From Thermoplasmata archaeon (GTDB lineage Archaea; Thermoplasmatota; Thermoplasmata; UBA10834), in contig JAOTTD010000006.1 in assembly GCA_029864565.1 (NCBI GenBank), positions 1-64,000 on the forward strand: a stretch of 64,000 nucleotides of DNA. Direction: 5' to 3'. Of this stretch, positions 6,436 to 9,104 are shown one piece after another. Below the pieces are notes generated by a model. The model saw nothing but the letters and a program-made list of their open reading frames with translations. It was not told the origin of the DNA and did not search any database. Each line of letters starts with the position of its first letter. Within the stretch, counting starts at the first letter, position 1. Both the position numbers and the translations under genes were made by a program.

Positions 6436-6701
6436 CGGGGCTCTCCGTTTATGCGGTCACACATGACAGTCAATTACAGATGGAGTGTCGCAATTTCTGT
6501 GGACATAGCATGATGCCCGAAGCCACACATTCGGCGTCGGAGCGCGTAGCTCCGATACTGGCCTGAGCGCTCTTAATAGCCTAACTGGGATATATATAAT
6601 TACTCGGCTCATTGTGCGGGTGTGTAAAGCCTCTTCACGAATGGCTCAGCCGCCGCTCACCAAAAAGAAGAATTACCGTGCGGTTCATCTTACTTCATCT
6701 C

Positions 6702-9104
6702 ATGGGTGAAGAATCTAAGAAGTCCAAGGAGGAACGAGTGGGCGTTTTCGTATGCCACTGCGGCACCAACATAGCAGGCACGGTGGACTGCAAGGCGGTG
6801 ACGGAGAGCTCTCTCGACATACCAGGCGTGGTCGTCAGCCGAGACAATGTCTACACGTGCTCAGAACCTGGTCAGAATGAGATAGTCGAGGAGATTAGGA
6901 AACACAACCTGACCAAGGTCGTCATCGCGTCATGTTCTCCGAAGATGCACGAACGCACTTTCAGGAAGACCCTGGAGAAGGCCGGACTGAACCCCTATCT
7001 GCTGGAAGTGGTGAACCTCAGGGAGCAGTGTTCCTGGGTTCACAAGGACAAGGCGGCGGCGACAAGGAAGGCGAAGGCACTCGTAAGGGGAGGCGTGCAG
7101 AGGGCGATCAATCTGGAGCCACTGCACCCCACAGAGATGGCCCTCTCCAAGGATGCCCTTGTGATTGGGGGTGGGATCGCAGGCATATCGGCGGCACTGC
7201 AGCTGGCCAACTCAGGTTACAAGGTCCACCTGGTGGAGCGAGAGGCCAGCATCGGAGGCAGGATGGCCCAGCTGAGCAAGACCTTCCCAACGCTGGATTG
7301 CGCACCATGCATCCTCAGCCCCAGGATGGTCGAGGCCGGCGCTCATCCAAACGTCGAACTCCTCACGAGGAGCGAGGTGATTCGAGTGACTGGTACCCCC
7401 GGCAATTACGAGGTCAGCGTCCGCGTGTCACCGAGAGGAGTGGACCCGAGCAAATGCACAGGTTGTGCGAAATGCGAGAAGGTCTGCAAGGTGATTGTGC
7501 CAAATGAGTTTGAAGAGGGGCTGTACGAGCGCAAGGCAATCCACAAGCCATTCCCTCAGGCAGTCCCCGCATCCCACGTGATTGATTTCGAGAGCTGCGA
7601 TGACTGTGGCCGCTGCGAGAAGGTCTGCGCTGCGAAGGCCATCAATTTCGATGAGGAGGAGAAGGTCGTCGACGTCAATGTGGGCGCCATTGTCATCGCA
7701 ACGGGCTTCGACGTCTTCGACGTGAATGCCCTCCGCGAGTACGACTTCTCACTTCCCGACGTCATAACCGGGACACAAATGGAGCGGCTGATGATCAACG
7801 AGTGCGGGGCGGGCATGGTTCTGAAGCGCAAGGCGGATGGCAAGCGGGTCAAGAAGGTAGCGTTCGTACTCTGCGCGGGCTCTAGAACGAGGAAGGTCGG
7901 CATGCCTTACTGCAGCAAGATATGCTGCAACTACGCCACCAAACAGGCGGTGATTCTGCGCAAGACATTCCCGTACATGCAGGTCTACGTTTACTACATC
8001 GACATGCGCACAGCGGGAAGGGGGTTCGAGGAGTTCTACGCTAGAGCCCAAGAGGAGTTCGGAGTGCGGTTCATCAACGGAAAGGTGGCGTCGATCCAGG
8101 CTGGCAAGAGCGGTGTCCTCCTGAGAGCTGAGGATGTGCCGCTGGGTGAGGTGATCGAGAACGAGTACGACCTCGTCGTGTTGTGTGCTGCCATGGTCCC
8201 CTCCAGAGGCACCGAGGAGCTGGCCAAGACGCTGAAGGTCCCGCTCGGCGAGGATGGTTTCATATCAGAGAAGCATCCGAAGCTAGACCCCGTCTCCACA
8301 CACAGGTCAGGGATATTCGCCGCGGGGGCGATCATGGGTCCCAAGGATGTCAGGGATAGCGTCGTTGACGGCCGCGGCACCGCATCGCATGTTATGGAGT
8401 TCCTGGGAGCCGGCAAGATGCTGCTCGACCCGGTGAAGGCGCAGGTGGTGAACGGTTCGAGATGCACGAAGTGCATGGCGTGCGAGGCGGTCTGCCCTGT
8501 CAGAGCGATATCTGTGGATCAGATGCCGATCATCGACCAGATCGCCTGCATCGGCTGTGGCGCGTGTGTTTCCGAGTGTCCCGTCGATGTGTTCGACTTG
8601 GCGCACTACACTGACCGACAGCTAAAAGCCGAGATAGAGGGCGTGCTTAGCGAGGAATCGGACGAGATAAGGACAATCGGCTTTTTCGGAGACATCCTCT
8701 CATATGTCGCTGCGGACTCGGCCGGGACTGCCAGGATGGAGTATCCACCGAGCATACACATCGTCCGTGTTCCGTCAGCCGCTCGCATCGCTAGGGCGGA
8801 GATACTGCTGGCATTCGCGGCGGGGGCGGACGGCGTTGTACTATCCGACGAGGAGGGAGGAGAGGCAGCACTCGTCGTTGAGAAGCGGATTGAAGCGATG
8901 GCCGACGAGTTGGATGCATTGGGCATCGGCAAGGACAGGTTGATATTCATACCGATGCTCCTGCCGATCTACAAGGTCCTGCCGAAGCGGATTGAGGCAT
9001 TCGAGAAGAAAGTAAAGCGCCTCGGCAAGCTCGGATCCGACGCTATTGCCAAGGCCCGTGAGGCGGCGGAGAAGCAGACGGACCCAGTCTTCGGGGCTGC
9101 ATGA
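6702..9104 (+). CDS. hdrA: HdrA-like heterodisulfide reductase subunit A (FAD, multiple 4Fe-4S) fused to an MvhD/FlpD-like C-terminal domain
   Basis: VGVFVCHCGTNIAG, VIGGGIAGISAALQLA, CTGCAKCEKVCK, CDDCGRCEKVC, CTKCMACEAVC, CIGCGACVSEC; start at ATG 6702 downstream of a TATATATAA box. Confidence 0.93.
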   Translation: MGEESKKSKEERVGVFVCHCGTNIAGTVDCKAVTESSLDIPGVVVSRDNVYTCSEPGQNEIVEEIRKHNLTKVVIASCSPKMHERTFRKTLEKAGLNPYLLEVVNLREQCSWVHKDKAAATRKAKALVRGGVQRAINLEPLHPTEMALSKDALVIGGGIAGISAALQLANSGYKVHLVEREASIGGRMAQLSKTFPTLDCAPCILSPRMVEAGAHPNVELLTRSEVIRVTGTPGNYEVSVRVSPRGVDPSKCTGCAKCEKVCKVIVPNEFEEGLYERKAIHKPFPQAVPASHVIDFESCDDCGRCEKVCAAKAINFDEEEKVVDVNVGAIVIATGFDVFDVNALREYDFSLPDVITGTQMERLMINECGAGMVLKRKADGKRVKKVAFVLCAGSRTRKVGMPYCSKICCNYATKQAVILRKTFPYMQVYVYYIDMRTAGRGFEEFYARAQEEFGVRFINGKVASIQAGKSGVLLRAEDVPLGEVIENEYDLVVLCAAMVPSRGTEELAKTLKVPLGEDGFISEKHPKLDPVSTHRSGIFAAGAIMGPKDVRDSVVDGRGTASHVMEFLGAGKMLLDPVKAQVVNGSRCTKCMACEAVCPVRAISVDQMPIIDQIACIGCGACVSECPVDVFDLAHYTDRQLKAEIEGVLSEESDEIRTIGFFGDILSYVAADSAGTARMEYPPSIHIVRVPSAARIARAEILLAFAAGADGVVLSDEEGGEAALVVEKRIEAMADELDALGIGKDRLIFIPMLLPIYKVLPKRIEAFEKKVKRLGKLGSDAIAKAREAAEKQTDPVFGAA

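Follow-up and report, generated by a model that had tools for sequence, protein, structure and literature searches.

The C-terminal tail of an HdrA encoded by a Thermoplasmata archaeon is an MvhD/FlpD domain that has lost every cysteine, and this cysteine-free fusion is a real and conserved variant of the known HdrA-MvhD fusion. It is encoded in a stretch of 64,000 nucleotides (hereafter the window), belonging to contig C22 of an archaeal genome of 1.93 Mb that is 86% complete. We denote the fused MvhD/FlpD domain without cysteine MvhD*, and an HdrA bearing it HdrA*. Published classes of MvhD-fused HdrA presume a [2Fe-2S] cluster, and a widespread cysteine-free subclass has been overlooked, so that annotation of HdrA-MvhD proteins as hydrogen- or formate-linked may err in many Bathyarchaeia and Thermoplasmatota. 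A search of openly accessible papers found no description of cysteine-free MvhD fusions, which is not proof of their being undescribed, since subscription papers and supplements lie outside that search. A natural HdrA clade devoid of the [2Fe-2S] cluster, with the rest of the protein intact, also provides a direct test of the cluster's necessity.

The fused MvhD domain and the intact HdrA core

Positions of the gene and its parts are listed in Table 1. The reading frame opens at TTG 6612, the ATG at 6702 being the likelier start. The protein shares 44% identity with 5odc_A and matches its fold over the full length (E 4.7e-80; pLDDT of the AF2 model 90).

Table 1. Parts of the HdrA-MvhD* gene, in positions of the window
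Feature	Position	Strand	Remarks
HdrA-MvhD* gene	6702..9104	+	800-830 aa plus stop; ORF 6612-9101, stop 9102-9104
HdrA core	6753..7943	+	column-by-column comparison with 5odc_A
N-terminal Cys motif CHCG	6753	+	HdrA core
FAD/thioredoxin-reductase domain with DCAPC (C197 equivalent)	7296-7316	+	HdrA core
Inserted ferredoxin	7452-7628	+	HdrA core
E356 equivalent	7773-7790	+	HdrA core
K409 equivalent, last residue of ICCNYATK	7943	+	HdrA core
C-terminal 2[4Fe-4S] ferredoxin domain	8460..8582	+	all eight Cys present in the window
MvhD* (fused MvhD/FlpD, zero cysteines)	8676..9026	+	PF02662, fold, Cys count
Former CCxxC site, now FFGDILSY	8676..8717	+	alignment
Former MCSGR site, now RVPSAAR (Cys to Ser)	8766..8786	+	alignment
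Former GCHxxDCHY site, now LSDEEGGE	8841..8864	+	alignment; second Cys is a gap
PMLLPIYKVLPK motif	8952..8987	+	alignment; replaces WISAAEGEKF region of intact MvhD

The tail is a true MvhD/FlpD domain. Residues 689-805 (about 117 C-terminal residues) cover positions 2-123 of the 123 in the PF02662 profile and score 71.4 bits when the genome is searched and 68.2 in the scan, the cut-off being 22.3; the peptide quoted in the initial annotation corresponds to residues 689-773 of the 830 in the ORF. Single-sequence phmmer retrieved MvhD chains of the PDB with E-values from 1.9e-12 to 1.3e-7 (8rvu_F 1.9e-12, 5odc_D 2.6e-11). The AF2 model of the tail (pLDDT 92, pTM 0.88) was matched by Foldseek to 5odc_D (E 2.9e-11, TM 0.81) and, together with 8rvu_F and 7bkb_F, in the range 2.9e-11 to 4.9e-9. 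VIA-align superimposed the tail on solved MvhD with Z 18.2 (rmsd 1.9, 129 residues) and gave Z 17.6-18.2 for the three chains against 8.4 for the next fold, a fold test not fully independent of homology because the AF2 input alignment contained intact MvhDs. Among unrelated folds, lumazine synthases come closest, which we ascribe to a common alpha/beta arrangement. Profile, PDB sequence and fold matches together rule out a chance resemblance or a tail of other origin, and the homology asserted in the initial annotation, for which structure prediction had been proposed as a check, is thereby confirmed.

Aligned with an intact MvhD of the same genome, the window's tail has F, G, L, S and E at five of the six cysteine columns and a gap at the remaining one. 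The last 150 residues contain no cysteine and one histidine, which leaves neither a shifted cysteine nor a histidine pair and rules out a Rieske-like His/Cys site. The replacements originally read by eye (CNWC to GDIL, MCSGR to PSAAR, GCHPGDCHY to SDEEGGEAA) are right within one or two columns. The two statements built on them, that all Fe-S cysteines of the tail are lost (none of six aligned, none at shifted positions) and that the tail cannot hold a Cys-ligated [2Fe-2S] cluster, stand as well.

Substitutions at the former ligand sites follow a pattern. Among 64 cysteine-free tails, the former cysteine of the MCSGR site is Ser or Thr in 97%, the Gly preceding a former cysteine of the GCHxxDCHY site is Asp or Glu in 98%, and a third former cysteine column is acidic (Asp/Glu) in 77%, the window having Gly there. 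The Pro of the PMLLPIYKVLPK motif is common to 62 of the 64. Tails retaining two cysteines carry the same replacements, with Asp or Glu at one pocket position in all rows. Judged by these alignments, the site looks like one that has been re-used and not like the product of neutral decay.

The HdrA core retains all [4Fe-4S] cysteines of 5odc_A together with K409, E356 and C197, residues tied to bifurcation and dimerisation (PMC12054007, PMC9012536). Only reference cysteines 83, 326 and 541 (5odc_A numbering) differ; of the other aligned relatives, none has Cys at 326 or 541, and only L124-L126 have it at 83. With its cluster ligands and these three residues intact, the gene is not a decayed one. 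The open frame, the intact core and the same state in independent genomes rule out a pseudogene, a frameshift or an assembly error. Where synonymous sites were not saturated, dN/dS was about 0.09-0.13 for the tail and 0.04-0.11 for the core. The predicted fold of MvhD* is kept and the tail is under purifying selection, consistent with a role in structure or docking.

A further cysteine is missing in six HdrA* orthologs (L012-L016, L115), where C587 (5odc_A numbering) of the C-terminal ferredoxin domain is replaced by Trp (CxxWxxC). This is possibly a second step of erosion; the window retains all eight cysteines.

Distribution, phylogeny and genomic context of the relatives

The tail is carried by 15 of the 21 genomes of the window's order, at 63-100% identity; two of the remaining six belong to another family and four are incomplete MAGs. 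Every full-length relative from Thermoplasmatota-type genomes that was read (L009-L020, L115) is cysteine-free, as is the fragment L042. Their HdrA* genes lie among genes for KaiC-like, DUF531, AIR-synthase-like, FtsJ methyltransferase and helicase proteins, and no redox gene occurs among these conserved neighbours.

Beyond the order, the class draw of Bathyarchaeia yielded matches to the cysteine-free tail in 83 of 201 genomes (E 1e-12 or better), the cysteine state being read for the fetched matches. Among 80 distinct fused HdrAs, 64 have none of the six MvhD cysteines, seven have two and nine have four to six; since the sample was gathered by likeness to cysteine-free tails, these numbers are no frequency in nature. 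The initial annotation presented the tail as a single oddity. Instead, it marks a widespread subclass, mainly of single origin. In an HdrA tree built on the core alone, a supported (starred) branch sets apart 62 cysteine-free rows from Thermoplasmatota and Bathyarchaeia, and a second starred group comprises the two-Cys rows. The free tree suggests a separate origin of the two-Cys group, but a single origin with the main group is not rejected (p-AU 0.364), and we do not adopt the separate origin. One cysteine-free-type HdrA-MvhD (L125, 8275-10590) lies elsewhere in the tree on a long branch. It adjoins HdrB and HdrC, its E356 is replaced by Ala and one cysteine of its C-terminal ferredoxin by Leu.

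The window's group is sister (99, starred) to Bathyarchaeia HdrAs encoded in HdrC-HdrB-HdrA* operons (clade 3). In Bathyarchaeia clade 1, HdrA* stands with fumarase, HdrC, HdrB, TfrB-like and TfrA-like proteins and malic enzyme; in clade 2 it is accompanied by EtfAB, acyl-CoA dehydrogenase and an HdrD-like CCG protein, in some members also by a FAD fumarate-reductase-like protein. The two-Cys fusions of Thermoplasmatota occur with KorABC or MvhGA, together with HdrBC and TfrAB. Some intact fusions are found next to MvhAG (L202), KorABC (L201) and, as read by eye, a molybdopterin-type oxidoreductase (L191, L192). The contrast between operons of cysteine-free and intact fusions is suggestive and not clean: a cysteine-free HdrA* can also have hydrogenase genes beside it, as in L183 (2860-7631), where it adjoins MvhA and MvhG and the 12 kb stretch bears no gene labelled MvhD.

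The window's HdrA is closest to type Ia HdrA, the class defined by a C-terminal MvhD fusion (PMC12054007), which it possesses, and to HdrA2 of Methanosarcina acetivorans. HdrA2/type Ia (NF040770) has the same domain order, the same 4Fe-4S and FAD core and the C-terminal MvhD (PMC5296606, PMC12054007), but its MvhD bears a [2Fe-2S] cluster, whereas the window's HdrA* has no MvhD cysteine and is not encoded beside HdrB2C2. NF040770 is its best NCBIfam match (849 bits over residues 42-809), below the cut-off of 1100 that three intact fusions exceed with 1214-1267 bits. HdrA of the HdrABC-MvhAGD complex from Methanothermococcus thermolithotrophicus (PDB 5ODC) has a core 44% identical to that of the window's HdrA, with the shared residues described above, but its MvhD is a separate, cluster-bearing protein, whereas MvhD* is part of HdrA itself and lacks the cluster. 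The ElpC/MvhD proteins found in the Elp-Hdr and Fdh-Hdr complexes (PDB 8RVU, 7BKB; PMC12350162) have the same fold as the tail and hold a [2Fe-2S] cluster next to the bifurcating FAD, which the tail cannot. Finally, the two-Cys fusions of other Thermoplasmatota (L116-L122) share the eroded MvhD tail with its acidic and Ser replacements, but differ in keeping two of six cysteines, in their KorABC/MvhAG operons with HdrBC and TfrAB and in their separate place in the free tree. In all members of this group that were read, Cys103 (5odc numbering) is replaced by Ser. For a QmoB-type reading of the window's protein, the papers searched gave no specific support.

Candidate partners in the host genome

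As originally noted for the flanking genes, no hdrB or hdrC lies beside HdrA*, and this holds for the entire window contig, in which no PF02754 (HdrB-type) match and no further FlpD match was found. No donor module adjoins HdrA* in the window's lineage.

The question whether the genome has another intact MvhD can be answered positively. It encodes eight other FlpD domains, those aligned keeping their Cys motifs, some only in part, so the organism cannot be regarded as one without intact MvhD. As read by eye, one of the eight adjoins a formate-dehydrogenase-like gene, and four share a single cluster with HdrBC, MvhAG and more than one gene for HdrA. This Hdr/Mvh cluster spans more than 20 kb of contig C32 (L089 4582 to L090 5894) and contains several HdrA genes, two of them longer than 900 aa, four FlpD, HdrBC, MvhG, MvhA and a hydrogenase-maturation-like gene. 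One of its HdrAs is of the normal, unfused kind and is already provided with HdrBC and MvhD there.

An orphan HdrC-HdrB pair is located on contig C27 (L205 5471-6803, genome G000) with no HdrA beside it; the preceding gene has the apparent start of an HTH regulator. The pair is present in 17 of 19 genomes of the family at 82-93% identity, and is closest (52-54%) to the pair flanking the cysteine-free HdrA of L183. Strict co-occurrence with HdrA* was not found: two genomes of a neighbouring family (MAGs 86-89% complete) also have the pair, with no HdrA* found, so the pairing is not a strict one. The HdrB tree leaves it without resolution. The C27 pair is the likeliest candidate for the partner of the window's HdrA*.

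Two partners known from the relatives can be rejected as local ones. EtfAB is rejected as no ETF domain was found in the 86% complete genome, and TfrAB because the only candidate is a distant SdhA (30%) in an apparent SdhABCD operon.

Electron route and alternative explanations

According to the structures of the Elp-Hdr and Fdh-Hdr complexes, electrons pass from the donor through the HdrA clusters to the [2Fe-2S] cluster of MvhD/ElpC, which is the last relay; the bifurcating FAD that follows belongs to the other HdrA. How they go on from the [2Fe-2S] cluster to FAD is called unknown by the authors, and the arm then swings (PMC12350162). Loss of the last relay must change access to that FAD. 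We consider it probable, though by a modest measure, that HdrA* is a FAD-competent, MvhD-fused HdrA (type Ia, HdrA2-like) whose MvhD now serves, without a cluster, as an arm or a docking domain, and in which electrons enter or leave by another route. HdrA* would still bifurcate or confurcate at the flavin, acting with an HdrBC pair, in the window's organism presumably that of contig C27. Electrons would bypass the [2Fe-2S] gate that normally feeds the bifurcating FAD. They might reach or leave FAD directly from a docked flavoprotein or a soluble hydride carrier, or alternatively travel via the remaining [4Fe-4S] clusters, with MvhD* retained either within the mobile arm or to seat a partner. 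Of the interpretation in the initial annotation, a real MvhD with no cluster and with its fold kept has been borne out and dN/dS fits the structural or docking role; the altered electron route is, as before, something we infer.

The occurrence of the cysteine-free form in dozens of other archaea suggests a way of electron feeding not yet described. A bolder version, which we put forward tentatively and hold to be rather doubtful, is that a large archaeal Hdr clade has abandoned the MvhD [2Fe-2S] gate altogether, its FAD being reduced or oxidised directly by docked TfrAB, EtfAB or a hydride carrier and the dead MvhD serving as the docking arm. If this is true, Hdr bifurcation would be linked directly with fumarate/succinate or acyl-CoA couples.

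HdrA* might instead pair with a different HdrA in an asymmetric dimer and be fed by that partner's intact MvhD, its own dead arm merely occupying the place. The MvhD cluster of one arm does feed FAD' of the other protomer (PMC12350162), C197, which completes the partner's N-terminal cluster, is kept, and possible partners exist among the eight other FlpD domains, four of which are clustered with HdrA genes, HdrBC and MvhAG. Nevertheless, no other HdrA gene lies near that of HdrA*, the sister operons of Bathyarchaeia contain a single HdrA* with HdrBC, and the normal unfused HdrA of the Hdr/Mvh cluster is already provided with HdrBC and MvhD. We hold such a dimer to be unlikely.

We regard it as quite unlikely that the pocket of the tail has been rebuilt for a divalent metal, a nucleotide or a small ligand, turning the domain into a putative sensor or regulator. 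The near-invariant acid (two-Cys rows included), the frequent second acid and the Ser/Thr column would suit a new ligand, and lumazine synthases are the nearest unrelated folds. Charged replacements would equally fit a surface that is merely solvent-exposed, however, Z near 8 may reflect only a common arrangement, and the second acid is absent from the window, where Gly stands in its place.

The tail could also be a functionless vestige of an old fusion; loss of C587 in the six orthologs looks as if the input branch were still eroding. This explanation is nonetheless very improbable in view of dN/dS of about 0.1, the intact predicted fold and the patterned residues conserved over two phyla.

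That HdrA* is an ordinary HdrA2-type enzyme, taking F420H2 directly at FAD with its MvhD cluster dispensable, as direct F420H2 use has been proposed for type Ia HdrA (PMC12054007, PMC5296606) and HdrA2 is the best NCBIfam match, is hardly credible given a score below the cut-off that three intact fusions exceed and a genome, 86% complete, in which no match to CofD (TIGR01819) was found. F420H2, the reported donor of HdrA2, is accordingly an unlikely one in the window's organism.

An alternative electron feeder could be a protein of about 402 aa encoded near cysteine-free HdrA* (L174 8922-10127, also L175 and L179), which contains two ferredoxin and two FlpD stretches with their cysteines.
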